A stretch of 64,000 nucleotides of DNA, from NCBI RefSeq assembly GCF_023343835.1, contig NC_064447.1:8014001-8078000 (forward strand). The letters are read 5' to 3'. Positions 4,334 to 37,185 of this stretch are shown piece by piece. Both the position numbers and the translations under genes were made by a program. The stretch is from Lagopus muta (taxonomy: Eukaryota > Chordata > Aves > Galliformes > Phasianidae). The notes under the pieces are model-generated. The model did not search any database. It was not told the DNA's origin and worked only from the letters and a program-made list of their open reading frames with translations. How positions within the stretch are numbered: position 1 is the first letter of the stretch; each line of letters begins with the position of its first letter.

Positions 4334-6307
4334 CTAGGCAACCTTCATGTAATAGTTGTCCTCCTGGGCAAGAACCTGTAGAAATTCAACTTTTTTCTCA
4401 TTCTTCCTGTTGTTTTCCATTAATAGTTCTGATGATCTTTTTCTAACTGCAGGTGCCAGTCCAGAACTCTCATTGTGAGTGGTGCGAGAATCAGAAAGAT
4501 GAGGGTTATCTGCACAAACAGCAGCTGACTTGTCTGAGACCAAGAGCTCCAGAGGCTCTTCTGCAGTTTTTACAGTTAGCCCCATGCCATCCAGCAATTC
4601 ATCAGGTAAGTTTGCTGCTGAGCAACTACACCTGTTTGCCACCTCTTTATTTTCCTCTGAGTTTCCAAACATCCTCAAATGGTTGCATGGGGCACACTGG
4701 AAGTCAGTACTTATTCTGTCACTGCTGCCCCCTGGCACTCCTTCACCACAACAGTTCAAGTCATTATGTTTTGTTCCCTTTATAGCTCTCTCTCCATTAA
4801 AATCTTGACAGTTCAGCTCCAAGAAATGCAACAGCTGTTTGTCTCTGCTGGTGTTTTCATCTTTGTTATCACTCAACAGCTCATGAGAGCTGACAATTGA
4901 AAGGCTGTCATCACTACTGCATGACACTTTCTCACGAGAGCCTGCACCCGGGGCAATGCCAGAATCAAAGTCCTGTACAATCAAACACTCACGGCCATCA
5001 GGCTCATGGGTTATGTTATATGGAGGTGTTTCTTCCAGGCTGTTGTACAAAAGATGAACTAAGGGTTCGTACAGTGACTTTGAGATAAACTCACTGCTAC
5101 TGTCAAAGTGTGCACCACTACATTTAACTGCAGCATCAAAAGACTTATAACCAGATGGCTGAGGTCCAGCAGGGCAAGCAAGCACGCTGCCTTCCTTTTG
5201 AAGATTTTGATACACTGCCTGCTTATGAATTTCTTCCTCTGGTAGGAAAGCTGGAACTCCATCATTCACATGTGCCTCTGAAGATTGGGTTAAAGATGGC
5301 AACAAGCACATATTTTCAAAGTGCATATTCAAACTACTGCTAGCCACAGACTGAGACATTAAGGCATCAAAGCTCCTGTATGCAGAGCTACAGGGCTCCA
5401 CAGATGGAGACGCAAGGGTGTCCAAGCTCTTGTATGCAGAGCCACAGGGCTCCACACATGGAGACATTACAGCATGAAAGCTTTTGTATGCAGAGCCACA
5501 GGGCTCCACAGATGGAGACATTACAGCATGAAAGCTCTTGTATGCAGAGCCACAGGGCTCCATAGAAGGAGATATGAGGGTGTCAAAGCCCTTGTATGCT
5601 GAGCTGCTTATTCTGTCAAAGGCTGGTTTATTTAGAGATTCCCAAATAAGCACAGATGAGTCACGCTGACTTTCAGAACTGCACGTCAAAAGGCTTTGTT
5701 GAAGCTTACAGGGACTATCTCTTGCATCCAGAGAAGCAGAATTTGTGCTGGAGCTCCGATAGCCAGATTCAAAGGATTCTTCTGATTGTGCAGACTTCCT
5801 GCTGGTTGTACTGCAATTATACTCATCCTGAGAGGCTTCAGTAAAAGGAGAGTCTCTATGAGAACCAGCTGACTGCTGACTCTGGACAGCACTTTCTACT
5901 AGATTTTTTTGAGAAAGATTTTCTGACTCAAGTTTCTGAAAGATTTCACTTGTAATGATGTCTGGATCTTTATCATCTTGCATGCTTTTTTCATCTGCCA
6001 AGAGCTCCATGAACATGTTAGCTAGTGCATCATTGTGTTCAGCGTGCTCCCTCAGCATGCTGACACTGCCCTCACAAGGCTCAAATACGGTGATCTGGTC
6101 ACTGGTCTTTTCCTGGTTCTCAGCCTCAATGTCTGTTAAACGTTCACAGATTTCCACAGACTCTTCAACAAGAACAGTCTCAGGGGTTAAAACTGCATTA
6201 ATGCCTTTTGGAAACCACACTCCAGGCTTGCTGCAGCAACTGCAAGATTTCTCAATGTTTCTGATGTTATCTTTTTCCTTGAAGTTCTGGCTTGACAAAC
6301 TTTGAGC
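4334..6307 (-). CDS. IL4R: IL4R last coding exon: cytoplasmic signalling tail
   Basis: This exon encodes residues 282-938. The acceptor after ctgtcag at 6308-6314 (minus sense) is chosen because it keeps phase 0 with the Box1 exon and yields AQSLSSQNFKEK, aligning with AQGSQWEK in human. An acidic stretch (VEESVEICERLTDIEAE) follows a Cys-rich KSCSCCSKPG segment. STAT6-docking-like tyrosines are at 519, 537, 555, 573 and 591 (tandem repeat) and 668 (SGYKSF). Two ITIM-like tyrosines are at 694 (SLYEPL) and 702 (LLYNSL), followed by a conserved-looking VQDFDSGIAPG segment. The stop is at 4334-4336. Confidence 0.92.
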   Translation of the reverse strand, partial: AQSLSSQNFKEKDNIRNIEKSCSCCSKPGVWFPKGINAVLTPETVLVEESVEICERLTDIEAENQEKTSDQITVFEPCEGSVSMLREHAEHNDALANMFMELLADEKSMQDDKDPDIITSEIFQKLESENLSQKNLVESAVQSQQSAGSHRDSPFTEASQDEYNCSTTSRKSAQSEESFESGYRSSSTNSASLDARDSPCKLQQSLLTCSSESQRDSSVLIWESLNKPAFDRISSSAYKGFDTLISPSMEPCGSAYKSFHAVMSPSVEPCGSAYKSFHAVMSPCVEPCGSAYKSLDTLASPSVEPCSSAYRSFDALMSQSVASSSLNMHFENMCLLPSLTQSSEAHVNDGVPAFLPEEEIHKQAVYQNLQKEGSVLACPAGPQPSGYKSFDAAVKCSGAHFDSSSEFISKSLYEPLVHLLYNSLEETPPYNITHEPDGRECLIVQDFDSGIAPGAGSREKVSCSSDDSLSIVSSHELLSDNKDENTSRDKQLLHFLELNCQDFNGERAIKGTKHNDLNCCGEGVPGGSSDRISTDFQCAPCNHLRMFGNSEENKEVANRCSCSAANLPDELLDGMGLTVKTAEEPLELLVSDKSAAVCADNPHLSDSRTTHNESSGLAPAVRKRSSELLMENNRKNEKKVEFLQVLAQEDNYYMKVA

Positions 6308-9300
6308 CTGACAGTTTTTGCAACTGCTGTTTTAGGAAATAAGAAAGACAGAAACGTTTATGTAATAGAAAAATGTCATGCTGTGAAGCTGAGGTTCTCC
6401 CCTCACCCTATTTATCTTACTTACATTTGCTTTTCCACATGACTTGGCTTTGAATCATAGAAAGGGAACTTCATTTCATCAATATAGTTCAAGACTGAAA
6501 ACTGATAAAACAGAAGTGTTATGACACACAAAATATGTTTAGTATTTCCCACATTCCATATTCTATTCCTGGTGATCAGCAAAAGGTATATTTTGCAAAG
6601 CCCTTACAATACCTTGACATTTTTTACAACCAAATGGCTCTTTGCAGGGTTTGGGATTTGATCCCACCATTCTTTCTTCATTCTGTAAGGCAAGAATAAA
6701 AACTGTTTGCTTTAACTCAATTTTGGCTTGATCAGTACGCTTCCTGCTGCTGCAATACAGATTGCTAAGAAGGAGAGAAGAGCATAGAAGGAAGTGCCTG
6801 TTCTGCACATCTCCAGAAGCTGCTTTTCATAAACATATCTGCACTAACTTTGATTCATATGACTGCTCTACACAACCACAGTCACAAGTTCTTCCAATTG
6901 CCCTTAGAGTGACATGTGAAACAGATAGGCTCCCACTTTCATATTGCCACTAAAAATGTAAAAAGAAATGCACATATTTAACCATCATTACTGGAACTCC
7001 AGCAAAGATTGGGATTCAAAGCTAACAGACCCATAAATGCAGCCCATTTTAGTGCTGTAATAAGACCATTCTAGTGAGATTAGTAAAAAATACTCAATTA
7101 TCTTTTCAGAAAATGACAGAGTGCAGCAGATTGATGTTTAAAAGATGTTTGCTCACAGAGTTTGAGTTAAAGTTACAAAGGAAAATCCCGTACTACTAAA
7201 TGTTCAGTTAAACAACGGCAATACTGGCATCTGTGCAAAGTGCTAGTCTCTAAAACCCATGAGCAGCATGATACCTACTTGGTAAAACAGAAATAGCAAG
7301 TTACAGCTACTCCCATGATCAGGATGCAAGATATAGGAACAGCCATGTGCAGAATGTCTTCAGATGTCACTTGATAATCTGTTAAATAAATATATTTACA
7401 TACATATACACATACTGACAATACCAAATCCATCACCAAAAAATGCTACTTTAGAGGATGTGAAGTAAAGCCTTTGCAGATCAACAGCAGAACCAGTGGC
7501 AATGGCATGTGTCACATCTAAAGGCCAGTGCAGATCCTTCAGTTACCTACTGTCAGTGAGGCAGGAACTGGGATAGCCACGTGTACTGTGAAGCCATTTG
7601 TCCGCCCTCAGAAACAAACCCATCTCAGTCCCTGGAACGGAACTGTAGTGCAGCTGTGCTCTCACCCTCTGTGCTGCTCTTAAGAAATATTATTTTTAGA
7701 GCCTCACCCCTCTAATGGAAAATTGAGAGCTACTTCCACTTCATTCTCTCTTACTCATTTATATCCACTTGCTTTTATTATTATTTTTAAGTTTAAATGT
7801 CTCTGCTTCTACCAGGCTGTGATTAGTTATAATACTTACCACAGTGAAATTCAACTCCATCACTCCAGTCACTCCAGTAGACTGGGTAATCTGTATAGTT
7901 ACACCGTATACTTGCGATGTAATCATAGCCTCTCTGCAAGGAGCTTGCAGTAATTTCAAAGCTTTTGGCCTGGTAGTTAATTGATGTCACAGTAACCTGA
8001 AAAGAAGGTAAGACAGTAAGAGTTCACTGATTTTCTTATGGGGATTAGAGCTTGTGGCACTAATTAGATGCCAACTGTGTTGTACATTTCCGTGACTTCT
8101 CATAAATGAGCAAGTGAATGACTGTACAAATTATCTGCTACATGCTGTTGTATTGTGCTGTCACAAAGGGGTCGTATCTGTGACATGCCATCGCACATGT
8201 TCTTCCTGGGGCAGAATAAGCCCTGCTCTAAAATGCTGCAGAGATCAGGAGGGCGCTTGAAATGCCTCAAATGCTCCACAGTGTCACAGACTGCCTCCAG
8301 CTTCAGATGTCACTTCAGATGTAACAGAAGCACTGTATTTTCAGTCTCCGTCCTGCCTACTGTGAGCAGCTGGTCCCTTTGGGGTGGTAGTCAGGAAAGT
8401 TTCACTCCTTTAAGGCCTTGTTTGAACCGACTTGGGACTGACACCAACAGAAAGTGCATGCTCAGGAACACCATGGGGCCTGCCCTCACTGGCCCTTACA
8501 CCATTGTTCATGAAACAATTTTAAAGTCCTTCAGAACATTTAGACCTTGAAGCTCCAGAGATAGAAAATGAGGCCAGCTGTCCCTTACCTCTTCTGGGCG
8601 CTGCTTGCTCCAGTATTTTACTTCATAGATGACTGGCTGTCCAAAAAGCATGGATGAAGCAGCATAGCTCTCCTCCCAGCTCAAATTGAAATTACCATTT
8701 TCAGCTTTCTCAACAGCAAGATTTTTGGGAGGCCTGGGCTTAACTGTACATTAAAAAAAAATACAATTAAGGAGAATGTGAAAATGTAGAAGTGTTGAAT
8801 TAAAGAAGCAGGGACAAAAAAACATTAATCAGAAGCCAAAATGTCAGAGTCAATGCATTTCAGCCCTTTTCACTAAGCTCTGCAAGGAGACCAAAACAGC
8901 ACAACTGCGAGGTATTCATCAACAACCACTGAAAACCCAGGTTGGCTGAGCAAACTTCAAACTCTACTTTTGGTGCAATGAGTGCAGCTTTCAACCTGAA
9001 GAAGTGGTAACAATCCATGCCCTGACAATAACATGCTGTGCCATATGCTGGGCATACAGCTTCTGACCACCCTGCATTCAGACTGTCCTGCCTACCTGTG
9101 TCTTAGAAACTGATGCAGCCTCCTGATGAGTCTCAGTGACATCAGGTAGGAAATAAATCAGATCATCACTGCAGATGAATGTCTGCCCAAGGCACATGAA
9201 TGATTTCTGAGCCTTTGAGGCGACACAGTGTTACAAACTCTTATTAGTTTAAACAAACCAGGTGCTGACAGAGAAATAGGAACTGTATCTATGCTTTGTC

Positions 9301-12300
9301 CTGTGAAAGAGCAGGGTCATCAACTTTTTATCAGAGGATAACAGCGACAGGAATGAAAGAATTTCAGTAGGGAGAGCTTACTGTTCTAAGAACTGGAAGT
9401 AGCGTCTTCCTCTTCATCCTTGAATTCTATAGCAACAAGTGAAGTTCTCTAAATACACACTTAAGCCCCCAAATTGTAGATGGCTGGAAGCTGAGATGGT
9501 AAAGCTAGAGGAAAAACCATTCTGCTTGCCCCATTTCTTGTATTCTTTCCTTAAGAATCTACTCCAGGATCAGGTTTCTAAGCCAACCATGCTTCTCATT
9601 TAAGCCAGCATTACAAATGTCATGTTTTCACAGAATCACAGAATTGTAGGGGTTGGAAGGGACCTCCAGAGATCGAGTCCAACCCCCCAGCCAAAGCAGG
9701 TTCCCTACAGCAGGTCGCACAGGTCGGCATCCAGGCAGGTCTTGAACATCTCCAGACAAGGAGACTCCACCACCTCCCTGGGCAGCCTGTTCCAGTGCTC
9801 CAGTTTTCACATCTACTAAGAAAAAAAACTCTTCTGGTAGCATTAATGGGGAGTCAGCTAGAGTTGCAAAGCCTGAAACTAAATGTTCTAGTGACAAAAT
9901 AAACAGTTTCTTACCAACTTGGGCTGGTGTAACACTGGAATTCCACATATTGGTGCCATTGAACTGTAGAGCTAGGATATAGGTGAGACCAGATACAAAA
10001 TAATCAGGATATATTGTGCAAGTGCACATAAAACTCTCTTCTCCGTTCTCAGGGACACACACATTTCTGAAAAACAGGTAGAAAATTATGATTGTTCATA
10101 TAGCACAGCATGCTATTTCTTGAAAGTGTGGAACTAAGCTTACCAGTGTGTGGAGCCAGTCAAATCTGATACAGGCAAGTTCAGTTTGTAGAAAAATTTA
10201 GTCCAAACAAATCCAAAACAAACCCAAGTCCCTCTCAACTCCCAAACCCCTTGGTGCTGCACTAATGAAAAGCTAAGAAATGATCTAGAAATGTTAACCC
10301 TGAAAGCAGCCTTCACCACACTCCCCTTCTGAAGGAGCAGACTGATGCCCTACTAGTCCAGGCACAGTTTTACTGCAGTGTACAAAACAAGATTACCCAG
10401 AAGTCTCTCTGGAGAAATCACATGGAGAGGAAGAGGAAAGCTCAGATTTGTCTTCCTGTCAGAGATGGCAGGAACACTGCCTCTGCTGCAGAAGGCAGCA
10501 AACAGCTGTGAACAATGAGTCGCACTGCATGCTACAGCCTGGTAAATCATGCGTGGTTTCTCACAAAATGAAGGCTCAGTGCACTGATGAGAACACTACT
10601 GTTTCTGCAAGCACTACTTGACAAATGCTACGTACCAAGAACACGGAGAAGTTTGTAAAGGAGTCTACTGAGCAGATGCATCACCAATGAGTATACAGAT
10701 GTTATAATTAAGAAATGTACAGAAAAGTTAGGCTAAACAGGTTACCATGCTAAAGAAGAATGGATGGAAAGCTTACCCTTGTCCTGGGCTAGCTGAGGAG
10801 ACTCCAAGAGGAGCAATCTCCAAAAGGGATCCTTCCCTAGTGGCATTCAGCTCTTAAATGGGGTCTAGCAGAGGTGCAGCCAGGCTCCACCCCTTCCAAT
10901 AGCACAGAATTGTCTTCACCTGTGCTCCCAGGGCTGACTCAGGGCTCACCTCAGGTGGTCGATCTGAGATTCAGGCTGTGATTCAGCAGTTCCCATACAC
11001 TAGAGCATAATGTTAATTGCAGGACACATCTTCCTCCTGGCAATGAGGACAGCCCTGACTACGCCTTGTCCCAGGCACCCATGACAAAGGGATGGAATCA
11101 AAGCTGGTAATGGCTATAGAATATATAAAGTTCCAATGACAACAAAGGAAAGTCTCATTAAGCACTCACTCGGGAGGAAAAAATTCCTTCCTGTAGTAGA
11201 GCAGGAACTCTTGGGAGCAGTTCAGCTGTGCAGGCACCTTCCAGTGACAAATCAGCTTTTCGGCATAGTCAGTAAAGCATGCAAATTCCTGTATGTGTTC
11301 TGTAGCCATAACTAGGGAGAAGCAGCACGTAATGAGATGCATGAAAATCAGAAGAATTAACTGAACTAACCAGTAACATTTTGTAAAAATTGAATTCAAA
11401 AGACAAACTGCAGACAACGGTCAGCCCAAGCTCACTGCCTGCACGCCTGAACTTGTGTTTTATCTGCAATTGCTTTAAGCTTCCTAAGCTCATACCTTCT
11501 GCCTCCCTTGAGCAGCTCCTCACTGCAAATCTCTCTCTTCTCTCCCTCAATTCCTCCATTAAAACTTAGAGTAGCTTTGGTTGGTTTTCAGAATCCTTTT
11601 AGTTAGGATTTTTCTTGGAATTTCTTTACTTACCCTGCCAGAAGCTTTCTGTTGGCAATTATACAAGGGCCATATTGATAAATAATTTGGTTTCTCTGCA
11701 GTAAGTAAACATTTCTGCTCACACGGCCTAGCACATTACTAACTCTCCATTCTCATCATTTACATTGCAAATTTAAGACTAGTTGTCAACAATTCACATC
11801 CTGTAAGGCCCTTCAGCTATTGCAGAGCTTACTTCAGTGGTGCCTGTTTCAGATTACTCCTCCAAAGCAAAATCTTTTCGTAAGTACCTTACTTTGGTTC
11901 TATTCCTCCCATGTTTCTCCTTCTCTGTGGTTCCTTTATATCACGTTTTCTGATACAACTCATGCACTTTGATACAGTACACTATCTGCAAATGCAAAAC
12001 CTGTGATGGCCAGTTCCCCTTTGGGGTGCACCAATACAACATACAGCAGGATTTACCACTGCATCCTGTGGTACTTCAATAAAAACCTGACTCAAAGAAA
12101 CAATCATTTACCACTGCCAGCATGTGGTCTCTCACACTCATTTCAAATGTGCATCACTTTCGTTTGCCTTTCTACACAGCCTCCCATAAAACTTCATTAA
12201 CAAGGAGTCCTGGATCACTTGAGTGAACTCAAATGTTAATGAAGCTCACTTACACAAATGAGGATATACAACATTGCCAAAGAACCATTCATATTGTTAA

Positions 12301-14303
12301 TGAAAATCATGGTAGAAGTTGTCTGATACATCAACTGGTATAAGCTTAGAGCTGCTGGTTGCAGCTTGTGGTTTCATTGTTGTTCAGTATTTAGAAAGTG
12401 TTTTTCACAAGATAAATATCTTGCCCTCCGTTACTAATCTATGAGAGCTATCACTCAGATCCTCTCTGTGGCAGCACCGCATTTGCTCCCTCTTGTTCTG
12501 AATGGCCCACAGTTCTTCAAAGACAAACAAAACCAAAGGAAAACAAACAACAAAAAACACCAAACGTGTGCAGCAGTGAGACAAAAGCAAAAATCATTCC
12601 AACTGCAGCAAGTTGAAGACTCAGCATCTGCACTACTACAATAGTAACACTGCTCATTTCTTTCAAACACTATTTACTCTGTTCCTGTTTACAGTTTGTT
12701 GCCCTATATACTTTTACTGTTTCTGTCAGAAATCTTAAAGTAATACTAACATTCTAATCCCTTTAAAGATGAATTTTATCATTAACATATGGAAACATTA
12801 CATTTCACTTTCAAGAACACCTGAATTAAATGAAGCGCTTCCTGCTGCATTAAGCTGATCAGCAGCTTTATCTTGCCTTCCAGGGTCCTCGTGGATTCCC
12901 AGCACTCTGGATTATTTTCTGTACTCTCTTCCTGTGACCTTTCCCCCTTTCCTCATCTCTGGTACAAAGTTCCCTTTTTTTTTTTTTTTAAATAAAGTTT
13001 TTTTTAAAGATTCATCTCTGAGAATTTCCTTTAGCAACCACATTCCGTAAAGAATTCGTTTTCAGTTCATAGACTTAGAAAAGGGAACCGAAACACTGGA
13101 TTTCTTTTTTAATCCTCAACTGGAATATCATGATGAAAGAACTTAAAATATCCATTAATCAGGGAGGTGGACACCTGTGAAATTAAACCTTGATAACTTA
13201 GTGCAAATCTACCCAGATGAGATGACATACAAGATGTACTCTCACAAACTTTCATTCTTCTCATTAATTCAAACTGAAAGATTTCCCCCCCAGCACTAGG
13301 AGCATGTCTGAACTCATTGCATATAAGAAAATTGCTAAGAAATCTTGTTTTTTTGGACAGGCTATTTTTTATCTTAACTATTTTGGTTGGCTTTTTAAAA
13401 CCAGTGCCCGCACTAACACCAAAAAACCCTGCAGATTTTCATGACACAACTTAAAAGCTACAGAAAGTAAAATGGAAGACTCATTTTCCAAAGTATCAAG
13501 GTGGACCATCAGAAAAGCAGGGCTTCCTAAGTTACCTTCATCATGAACTTCTCGCTATGATGAACTTCAGAAAGCAGCCATTAACTAACAAGCAGCATTA
13601 AGACTTCATGCAGCCACACACCTTGCCAGAGCAATAGAGGTGTAATGAAGAACACACACGACACCACATGCTGTCCCTGCACAGGCACAAGGCAGGGCAC
13701 ACCACGGCTGACAGAGTGTCCTCAAAGCTGTTCAAATTCAGCCAACTCAGTCTTCCAACTTTGGAGAACACAGACTGACAGATGCCCATTGGTGGCAGAT
13801 CTAGACACTACTGCTTTTGTCCCCCATAGGTCTCTGCAGGTCTGCTGCTGGTGAGTGCACAAGGCAAGCAGTGGCAGCTATAAAAACAAATAAGAGATTC
13901 CTACGAGATTTCTACAGATGTTGGTGGGTCACTGCCAAGCATCCTGTTTGCAACACAGTGCTCAGAATAGATCAGACAACAGGGAAGCAGAGAACTGACT
14001 TTCCTAACCTCAGTTTCTCCTTACTGCAAATTCCTCTATTTTTTTCTTGCCTACATGGAAAAGGTCAAAAAAGCAAAGAGGTCTAAGACTTTACTACATG
14101 GATATTTCTAGCACTTGAGGTCGCAGATTTTATACTATTTAACATTAATAGTGCTGCCTGCTAGCTATTCCTAGACGTGAGAAAACGCTGTTAGGAAAGC
14201 TTAAGTATAATAATTTAAGAACATTGATAGATGTACCTTCCATTGTTGCATATGAAAAGAGAAGGATCCACAGGGTATGCAGCACGGGGAATCTTGCCAT
14301 CAT
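4334..14303 (-). CDS. IL4R: Interleukin-4 receptor subunit alpha (whole coding span, 8 coding exons)
   Basis: This type I cytokine receptor chain binds IL-4 and, with partner chains, IL-13, and signals through JAK kinases and STAT6 at the plasma membrane. The exons 14237-14303, 11170-11311, 9915-10066, 8589-8743, 7840-7996, 7279-7378, 6613-6682 and 4334-6307 join in frame to 938 codons plus stop. I see a signal peptide (about 1-21), the CHW motif of the N-terminal receptor domain, a WSDWS motif at 213-217, a membrane segment at about 234-256, the Box1 motif WWDQIPNPAKSHL at 263-275 and a long acidic tail ending in YYMKVA (human ends YMRVS). The tail carries five tandem 18-residue repeats with SAYK/R motifs. 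Human IL4R has 825 residues, so this protein is longer, mainly in the tail. Its neighbour NSMCE1 matches mammalian synteny. Identity is by recalled similarity to human IL4R. Introns hold CR1 fragments and otherwise nothing recognisable. Confidence 0.93.
5348..5602 (-). repeat. IL4R: Coding tandem repeat, 54-bp unit, STAT6-docking-like motifs in IL4R tail
   Basis: There are four complete units and a fifth partial one, 54 bp or 18 residues each, with consensus SAYKSFHAVMSPSVEPCG. The central tyrosine codons lie at 5594-5596, 5540-5542, 5486-5488, 5432-5434 and 5378-5380, spaced exactly 54 bases apart. The two middle units differ at about two bases of 54, which points to a recent duplication. 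The motif resembles the GYKxF/AYRSF phosphotyrosine sites that recruit STAT6 in mammalian IL4R. Position +3 is Phe in four units and Leu in one. Confidence 0.92.
6613..6682 (-). CDS. IL4R: IL4R coding exon 7: Box1 exon
   Basis: The exon runs from acceptor ttacag to donor gtattg and is 70 nt long. It encodes MKKEWWDQIPNPAKSHL and a few further residues, the membrane-proximal proline-rich Box1 that binds JAK kinase. It closely matches human KKKWWDQIPNPARSRL. Confidence 0.93.
7279..7378 (-). CDS. IL4R: IL4R coding exon 6: transmembrane segment
   Basis: The 100-nt exon has acceptor aacag and donor gtaggt. It encodes YQVTSEDILH and then a hydrophobic run (MAVPISCILIMGVAVTCYFC) of membrane-spanning length. 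Phases 1 and 2 at its ends fit the neighbouring exons. Confidence 0.9.
7840..7996 (-). CDS. IL4R: IL4R coding exon 5: second fibronectin domain, WSDWS motif
   Basis: The 157-nt exon lies between acceptor ttttcag and donor gtaagt. It encodes the C-terminal half of the membrane-proximal domain and ends PVYWSDWSDGVEFHC, with the WSxWS box of type I cytokine receptors at residues 213-217. Confidence 0.94.
8589..8743 (-). CDS. IL4R: IL4R coding exon 4: start of second fibronectin domain
   Basis: The 155-nt exon runs from acceptor gtacag to donor gtaagg. It encodes VKPRPPKNLAVEKAENGNF followed by LSWEE, equivalent to human VKPRAPGNLTVHTN, and ends KYWSKQRPEE. The frame continues into the WSDWS exon. 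Confidence 0.92.
9630..9815 (-). mobile_element. CR1 LINE 3' fragment in IL4R intron
   Basis: Reading plus to minus, cacagaatcacagaattg is followed by ggttggaagggacctccaga and then segments about tccctacagcaggtcgcac and caccacctccctgggcagcc. This is the reverse complement of a CR1 3' end, so the element is minus-oriented. It sits about 100 bases from coding exon 3 (9915-10066). Confidence 0.88.
9915..10066 (-). CDS. IL4R: IL4R coding exon 3: end of first fibronectin domain
   Basis: The 152-nt exon lies between acceptor tttttcag and donor gtaaga. It encodes NVCVPENGEESFMCTCTIYP and ends SSVTPAQ. Its paired cysteines resemble human TCIPENNGGAGCVCHL. Candidate N-glycosylation sites NGT and NSS are visible. 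Confidence 0.92.
11170..11311 (-). CDS. IL4R: IL4R coding exon 2: first fibronectin domain
   Basis: The 142-nt exon runs from acceptor ctccctag to donor gtgagt. It encodes MATEHIQEFACFTDYAEKLI, then CHWKVPAQLNCSQEFLLYY. The C-x9-C-x-W spacing is the signature of the cytokine-receptor N-terminal module (human CVSDYMSISTCEW). Confidence 0.92.
11312..14236 (-). other. IL4R: IL4R intron, no further feature recognised
   Basis: This is the 2.9-kb intron between the signal-peptide exon and the first receptor-domain exon. It is AT-rich unique sequence with a T-run near 12975-12989. Short open frames here have no recognisable product. Confidence 0.7.
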
Positions 14304-34900: not shown

Positions 34901-36050
34901 TACTTGCCAAGGTGAGGAGAAATAATAGAAAAAGTTATAGTTGTGTTTTCACCCATGCAATGGAAAGAGATATCCTCCATTTCTGAGCTCTCTGGTTTAA
35001 GCCAGCTGGGCCTGTTGGGAAACTTTCTGGTCCACTGCAGAGAAGATAACAGAAGCAGCATGCAGTCAGTATCCCTTTGTGTTGTAACAAACCATGAAAG
35101 TGCTGTGCAAATTCCTCTGCCCTGGAAATTCTCCCCGTGGTGATTTAAAAGGAAATGTAATATGCATCATTGTTGGAGTGGGCTGCATTTCTCAGCGAGT
35201 GACCTCACTTTGTTTTCCACACAGCTTGTGTTTGGAAACTGCAGGCTGTGGTGATGCTCTAAAAAGGTGATCTCCCAGATTGCACAATGGAGCAGTGCCT
35301 TGCCCTTCCTCTGCTTTTGGCACTGTGTTTTACACGCAAATTCGAATCACCTGCTGGGCTAAACCATCAGTTCCAGATAACAGGCCCAGTAGGAAGGCTT
35401 TGGCTGAGCAATGCACTAAACCTTGCTGAATTCACTTTGTAGCGAGATCCTTAGGCAGAGGGATCTTTTGACAGCAAGATCTGAGTCAGTGCAATAATAG
35501 TAACAAGCATGCAGGGAGCTGCAGGCTTGGAACCTGGGACAAAATGGGAGACCAGGCACACTACTGAGGCGTGATCACTGGTGATAACAGTGCTTGGTTG
35601 CTGAGGAAGGACAGATGACACATTTGGCAGTTGGTTTTGTGATGGTACTTGCAATGGATGGTAGCCATGGTGATGCGATGGGGACGATCCTCCAAGAGCT
35701 AGTCCTGATTTGGTATTGGTAACACTTGGCTAGAACAACGTGTGCTTTACCTTAGAAAAAAGCAAGATTCCCACATGAGTGTAAGCATAGGCATAAGCAT
35801 ACCCACGTGTATCTGCATGTGTGTAGAACACATCTGCATGACATCAGCAGCAAAACGAACTTTGAAGTAGTTTCCCATTCCTCTGTCTATGTGTGGCGCA
35901 TAAGAAGACGAAAGCACTGATAGAGACCCAAGCACTCTTCAGAGATGAGTGCTTTCCCAGCAAGTGATGATCATGGATTTGGCTAAAAAAGAAAGGGACA
36001 GAATTCTGATTGTTGTGACAAGGCCAATTTGCCTCATGATTCACATCGTA
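31996..36050. other. Intergenic DNA right of KDM8, no gene seen
   Basis: Unique AT-rich sequence, short open frames only, none resembling a known protein. No convincing exon pair or CR1 end recognised. Confidence 0.5.
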
Positions 36051-36052
36051 TT

Positions 36053-36192
36053 ATTTAATATTAAAACATATTTATATATTAATTAATTATAATTAATTAG
36101 TAATTATATTATATGTATTATATTATATATATTATATATAATATTATAATATATAGTATATAGTATAATATATACTATATTATACTATATTA
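36053..36192. repeat. AT-only simple repeat / low-complexity tract
   Basis: About 140 bases made almost wholly of A and T, with repeated tatat, attatat and atagtatag-like words and many self-complementary stretches. It could form cruciforms and is probably length-variable. Confidence 0.92.
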
Positions 36193-37185
36193 AATATTAC
36201 AAATGTATAAACTAAACATTCAATGAAGTGCACTGCTAGGAGCTTCGCACAACGGCATGCCTTGGAAAGTTAAAAGCATATCCAGCATCCCAAGGTATTT
36301 TTTAATGTAGCAGAATGAAATTCTTTGGGTGCAGCAAATGAAGCCCATAAAGTGTAATGCGCTGTGAAATCACAAAGCTCTACTTTCAACAGATGGAAAA
36401 AAACAACTTTAATACAAAAGCAAAAATTGATAGACTCCGTCATATTCCAAATATCAAATTACACTTTAACAGTGGCCATTACTGTCTGCAGAGTGTATTT
36501 CAGTTATTACATGCACTTGCTGCTTTGTCACTGTACAGAATTTAAGGTGATGAATACTATATTCTTCTGTCTTCTTCACTCTAAGAAGTCAGACAAAGTC
36601 GGTGACAAATGGCTCCCAGGTTACACATGCTGCTTCTGACTGCTGTCTGCTGCACCTGTTCAGCTATTCTAAGCATGGAACCAAACCCCTTTAGCTTTAA
36701 TGCTGCTTTTAGGAGTCCCTGTGCTGGGGGATGTTGGGAGCTGCACAAATGGACAGAGATGATCTGCCTGTTGCCAGTGGCAGAACTGCGGATTGGAAAG
36801 CTACTGCCAGGAAGCTTCCCTGTGCCCTTAGCGAAAGGAACATTACCATGAGCACAATAAAGAGCTCACCTTTTCCTCACTGTGCTGCATCTGACTTTTC
36901 TGATATGCAGGGAGGAGCAGAGGTACCTATTCCAGCCGTCTCAGTGTGGCTTCAGGCAGCATTTCTTGGGAACAATTTGCTGTATACCCAGGAGATGTAA
37001 ATGCTAGTTTATGGGAAAGGTCCTTGTTAATTAGTCATTGTAACCTCACTAGGGAAAACCTGGATACAGGATGGATCTTGTTCTTTTTGGAATGCACAAA
37101 GTCAGAAGCACGTGATGCACCAAAGACATAAGACTTCTGCAGAGAAAGGTGACATCTCATAAATCTCTTGGAGACTTCTGAAGGA
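36193..37185. other. Intergenic DNA, no gene seen
   Basis: Unique sequence between the AT-rich tract and the ancient CR1 fragment. Open frames near 36357-37131 overlap one another and show no domain I know. Confidence 0.45.

Follow-up and report, generated by a model that had tools for sequence, protein, structure and literature searches.

Does the cytoplasmic tail of a galliform cytokine receptor carry a multiplied set of STAT6-docking sites that are gained and lost as whole repeat units? The question is raised by a 64,000-nucleotide stretch of Lagopus muta DNA (NC_064447.1, positions 8,014,001 to 8,078,000; hereafter the window, to which all coordinates refer), in which a first-pass annotation had flagged a tandem run of STAT6-docking-like tyrosine motifs in a gene read as IL4R. 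A 52-residue lysozyme exon of the same genome is in keeping with a galliform other than chicken: its top-scoring PDB match is turkey lysozyme, with 2 differences, and it differs at 2 residues from a hen lysozyme chain as well.

That reading of the gene holds. Two exons on the minus strand match the IL4Ra_N profile (PF09238) above its cut-off, one at 11172..11297 (profile positions 1-42, E 8.1e-10) and one at 9919..10071 (profile positions 42-92, E 1.8e-11). They are followed in order, on the same strand, by WSDWS (7862..7876), which is the WSxWS motif of class 1 cytokine receptors, by Box 1 (KKEWWDQIPNPA, 6643..6678), identical in its letters to the human IL4R tail as given in PMC7444064, and by a long homologous tail. 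The last-exon frame that encodes this cytoplasmic tail (4334..6331, minus strand) is bounded by the stop before it and by its own stop codon, not by a mapped splice border, and comprises 665 codons. Against the human tail letters of PMC7444064 it reaches a local alignment score of 91, where 200 shuffles gave a mean of 44.3 (sd 5.1, maximum 57). Based on the two IL4Ra_N exons, WSDWS, Box 1 and the tail alignment taken together, the array-bearing gene is IL4R. Searched by itself against Pfam and the PDB, the tail returned no meaningful match, and a third PF09238 match, on C1, was discarded since it lies below the cut-off (E 0.56) and contains two stops.

Within the last exon, the minus strand encodes five in-frame units of 18 residues (54 bp), arranged head to tail in one open frame. 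Tandem Repeats Finder (TRF) reports the array at 5344-5604 with a period of 54, 4.8 copies, 83% matches and 0% indels, the top score among its eight rows for the window. The complete units occupy 5333-5602 and thus reach slightly further than the 5348-5602 assigned to the array at first pass. In reading order they are u1 (5549..5602, SAYKGFDTLISPSMEPCG), u2 (5495..5548, SAYKSFHAVMSPSVEPCG) and u3 (5441..5494, SAYKSFHAVMSPCVEPCG), all with YxxF; u4 (5387..5440, SAYKSLDTLASPSVEPCS), which has YxxL, lacks the Phe at +3 and fits the loose ITIM pattern S.Y..L; and u5 (5333..5386, SAYRSFDALMSQSVASSS), which has YxxF and is the most divergent. Their tyrosine codons are exactly 54 bases apart (5594-5596, 5540-5542, 5486-5488, 5432-5434 and 5378-5380), and at a lag of 54 the best 200-base segment contains 166 matches, the highest count among 100 shuffles being 72. 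S-A-Y is identical in all five units. The middle pair, u2 and u3, is separated by 2 of 54 bases, the remaining nine of the ten unit pairs by 10-18. The annotated spacing of SAYK/R tyrosines, on which TRF and the minus-strand frame agree, and the near-identity of the middle pair are therefore confirmed, and an array of head-to-tail, in-frame units without indels is a coding minisatellite, as had been proposed. A further motif, SGYKSF, is encoded separately from the array (5138..5155, minus strand). The annotation had described it correctly but numbered it residue 668, which we could not reproduce: the tyrosine lies at position 395 of the last-exon frame, and adding 306, the offset at which the sites upstream of the array match chicken numbering (see below), would make it about residue 701.

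A DNA search of the bird's own genome with the array returned at least one match, the array itself, and no second copy at the DNA level among the matches listed. The corresponding protein search yielded 20 matches, one of which is the array; the other 19 are weak, with 25-40% identity and a best E of 0.009 (on C41). In two collections of viruses and prokaryotes, 1 stretch (viral_contigs) and 14 stretches (genome_contigs) fit a pattern of the array, and none was confirmed as a relative. A DNA hairpin driving the repeat was considered and rejected, the fold of u2 being nothing special (z -0.14). Elsewhere in the window, TRF also reports an AT-rich tandem repeat at 36049-36199 with several overlapping periods.

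We then asked how well the units fit known STAT6 sites. The loose motif Y..F, entered as a STAT6 motif in PMC7444064, occurs in u1, u2, u3, u5 and SGYKSF, giving the last-exon frame five such sites; u4 reads YKSL, with Leu at +3. None of the five units has the full GYKxF, for which SGYKSF is the sole representative in the frame, and in all five the tyrosine is preceded by Ala, not Gly. For the three mammalian STAT6 motifs, we take human Y575, Y603 and Y631. As described in PMC5962649, the three motifs of mammalian IL4R share the consensus GYKxF, are separate from the I4R motif, and any single one of them recruits STAT6. In the human letters of PMC7444064 they read SGYQEF, AGYKAF and EGYKPF, so that GYKxF is matched exactly by GYKAF and GYKPF but not by GYQEF, and four of the seven human tail tyrosines are followed by ..F (AYRSF, GYQEF, GYKAF and GYKPF). 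With four Y..F sites already present in the human tail and five in the bird, the net gain is smaller than five new sites. Moreover, one of the human four, Y497 (AYRSF), is a described IRS site (PMC5962649), which means that Y..F alone is no proof of STAT6 docking. The genome does contain a STAT6 gene: two exon stretches on C31, located by STAT_bind and STAT_alpha profile matches and named by PDB matches, have STAT6 as their best PDB match (E 4.6e-31 and 8.7e-21). A single STAT6_C profile match was rejected as sub-threshold and interrupted by a stop. The annotated likeness to STAT6-docking sites thus stands for the loose motif in four of five units, alongside a STAT6 gene in the same genome, and fails for the full GYKxF; judged from motif content, STAT6 docking by the array units is plausible.

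To compare unit numbers with a second galliform, we used the codon tables of PMC3224688, in which chicken IL4R was resequenced and codons are given by residue and base position, together with those of six related birds. A window codon was counted as a fit if it equals the codon reported for any species of the table. Over the whole table, an offset of 288 fits 5/20 sites and 306 fits 11/20. Upstream of the array (residues 509-547), an offset of 306 accommodates all five sites, which none of 20,000 codon shuffles achieved. Downstream (residues 647-692), five of seven sites fit at offset 324; no other of the 201 insertion lengths tried fits more than 4/7, and 6 of 20,000 codon shuffles reach 5/7 at this offset. 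The shift from 306 to 324 is 18 codons, that is, one unit of 54 bp. Within the array, five of seven sites fit at 306 and also at 324, as expected if the units do not correspond one to one. When chicken unit numbers from 2 to 10 were tried, six units fit 6/7 downstream sites, followed by eight units with 4/7; the 6/7 figure depends on scoring the amino acid instead of the codon at residue 665, which was decided post hoc, and with the codons as printed six units fit 5/7. The two downstream misfits are residue 665 (ATG in the window; printed as ATA and called M) and residue 692 (Ile in the window; Thr, Ser or Asn in chicken), and at residue 679 the window codon equals that of the bamboo partridge only. 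Site 418 does not fit at offset 306 and was excluded from the later counts; an indel may lie somewhere between it and residue 509.

Because the flanking codons fit only with an extra 54 bp in chicken, the chicken reference most likely has six units, deduced from the codon table to span residues 550-657. The base positions of the table agree, in that residues 547 to 647 are placed at 12742 to 13042, 300 bases apart, the same distance as deduced (PMC3224688). That the chicken reference is one unit longer is thus a well-supported deduction, and it is very probable that the two birds differ in unit number, with five here and six in the chicken reference. A comparable array in an independent reference, as the table implies, also speaks against an assembly artefact. 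Four in-array sites also bear on unit type, as residue 574 (His) fits u2/u3-type units only, residue 594 (Leu/Arg) u1, u4 or u5 only, residue 628 (GAA/GAG/GAC) u1 or u4 only, and residue 647 (GCC/GTC) u5 only. If the chicken order is ? B A ? A C, as the table would suggest, against A B B A C in the ptarmigan, then the split was followed by gain, loss or conversion of units. The main text of PMC3224688 contains neither the word “repeat” nor “indel”; the array is undescribed and length variation unreported there.

The same tables hold several chicken variants in and near the array. Two of them, S590G with 173 samples and L594R with 174 (PMC3224688), are four codons apart, have near-equal counts and fall in one deduced unit, unit 3. 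Gly also stands at the place equivalent to 590 in u1 of the window, which makes conversion between units possible. S670Y (163 samples; PMC3224688, Table 3) corresponds at offset 324 to last-exon residue 346 (window 5294-5296), in the context LLP-S-LTQS (5282-5305) just downstream of the array. Given the same neighbours in chicken, Tyr670 would create Y-L-T-Q and with it the Y..Q STAT3 motif of PMC7444064. A stop allele at residue 665, reported in 1 sample (PMC3224688, Table 3), corresponds to last-exon residue 341 at the same offset of 324 (window 5309-5311); it would spare the array and delete SGYKSF and the remaining tail.

The array as a whole had been thought young. This does not hold if chicken has it too: being apparently common to both birds, it most simply arose before the ptarmigan-chicken split. 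At most the u2/u3 pair looks recent, and gene conversion could have caused that similarity instead. With one assembly covered here, the annotated suggestion that unit number may vary within the species is a conjecture.

On balance, we consider it probable from these sequence comparisons that the array is an IL4R coding minisatellite, located at the place of the I4R motif in this bird and likely in chicken, in which most units are putative STAT6-docking sites and copies are gained and lost. Its main rival is a neutral minisatellite, in which the tail tolerates in-frame changes of 54 bp, the tyrosine came along with the founder block, and signalling is indifferent to the number of copies. We regard neutrality as a real but lesser possibility. 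It would account for the variable linkers, for the loss of the +3 Phe from u4, and for a pooled pN/pS ratio among units of 0.63 (pN 0.19, pS 0.31; uncorrected, and from non-independent pairs). The finding that one of three mammalian motifs suffices for STAT6 recruitment (PMC5962649) also suits it. The motif third of the unit (codons 1-6) is quieter than the rest, with 5/18 variable bases compared to 20/36 elsewhere, which hints at constraint but is non-significant (Fisher p 0.08) and hence compatible with neutrality. Against a passenger tyrosine, S-A-Y is the same in 5/5 units and the frame is intact despite up to 18/54 base differences between units, and the codon table points to a similar array in chicken. 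The selection scan in Table 2 of PMC3224688, which lists 29 sites, does not single out the array: 7 of the 29 map inside it (residues 550-657), or 24% of sites for about 22% of codons (108 of ~490, the latter number being derived from the paper's “48 (9.8%) of the sites”), and so there is no excess. In a scan of this kind, units aligned by position can imitate positive selection through unit turnover, which bears on how those sites are read.

The position of the array complicates a simple multiplication of STAT6 sites. In the alignment to the human tail, u5 (SAYRSFDALMSQS) falls on NPAYRSFSNSLSQS, human Y497, and SGYKSF falls on SGYQEF, human Y575, in one colinear path. The string AYRSF is common to u5 and the Y497 region (NPAYRSF). 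When tyrosines were compared singly and without gaps, u5 was nearest to Y497 (32; Y603 26) and SGYKSF to Y575 (29; Y603 26). For the other units Y603 gives a slightly better score than Y497 (29/24, 22/21, 17/16 and 17/15 for u1 to u4), so the placement of the array rests on u5 and on colinearity. The array seems to lie at and just before the place of I4R and was apparently expanded there. In mammals, Y497 belongs to the I4R motif PL-(X)4-NPXYXSXSD, whose NPXY is recognised by the PTB domains of IRS proteins; these are recruited there independently of the STAT6 sites (PMC5962649). The annotated multiplication of a STAT6-docking motif therefore needs correcting, in that u5 aligns with an IRS-docking site and not with a STAT6 site.

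Two further readings follow from this position. One is that the galliform IRS site was converted and multiplied into a STAT6 array: NPxY would have been lost or never present, YxxF kept, and the five or six units would make a STAT6-heavy tail in which the number of docking sites changes by whole units, as opposed to one IRS and three STAT6 sites in mammals. We offer this only tentatively. The other, that the units dock IRS proteins as mammalian I4R does at the same position, could draw on the alignment of u5 with NPAYRSF, on Ser at +2 in four of five units and on Pro at -9 before u2-u5. It is very unlikely, since the NPxY core that IRS PTB domains recognise (PMC5962649) is missing from the entire 665-residue last-exon frame, which was the part of the protein scanned in full, and N-P is replaced by S-S or G-S in the units. 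Least credible of all is an assembly artefact in which the unit number is wrong or the array erroneous: tandem arrays are prone to mis-assembly and u2 and u3 are only 2/54 bases apart, but the other nine unit pairs are distinguishable at 10-18/54, the chicken table implies a similar array in an independent reference (PMC3224688), and if the genome is bLagMut1, it is a PacBio HiFi assembly with reads far longer than the array (PMC10320755).

If most units are indeed docking sites, a mechanism can be sketched. Unit copies would be gained or lost, presumably via unequal exchange or slippage, and four of the five copies here keep S-A-Y-K/R-x-F without an NPxY core. Upon phosphorylation by JAK, most units would be bound by the SH2 domain of STAT6, beside the separate GYKxF site, and having such tyrosines near one another along a disordered tail may increase STAT6 capture and re-binding as well as redundancy. 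The proposal that unit number tunes the signal step by step is speculative, because any one of three mammalian sites recruits STAT6 (PMC5962649), and the same property speaks for a shallow effect of copy number. If the units dock STAT6, the array would represent a natural change in the number of docking sites in a receptor of type 2 immunity, and birds with five and six units could show whether that number sets signal strength. The locus also raises the question of whether the direct IRS arm of IL-4 signalling is absent at this site in these birds.

What the locus holds is a real coding minisatellite in a known receptor and at a known docking place, and probably an old one. The receptor literature, covered by titles and abstract beginnings with subscription papers and supplements outside its scope, gave no item on such an array, and a literature search of the same scope found 0 papers with the strings SAYKSF, SAYKGF, SAYRSF, SGYKSF or AYKSFH. 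Compared to the mammalian IL4R STAT6 sites (PMC5962649), the bird units are alike in carrying Y-K/R-x-F in the tail and in being several related copies per receptor. In mammals these sites are scattered and a Gly precedes the Tyr; in the bird, 18-residue units stand head to tail at the place of Y497, and the Tyr follows an Ala. With the human I4R motif the array shares its aligned position and AYRSF in u5, and it differs in its substituted N-P and five-fold multiplication. Multi-copy phosphotyrosine chains are familiar from the YxxP repeats of p130Cas and the ITAMs of CD3 zeta, which likewise place many similar docking tyrosines on one disordered chain; to our knowledge, these are not tandem 54-bp DNA copies in a cytokine receptor. 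A coding minisatellite in a signalling protein is known from the 48-bp VNTR in exon 3 of DRD4. Protein and motif are different there, and for the IL4R array variation is deduced from a comparison between species, but both are in-frame repeats of a short-motif block with varying copy number.
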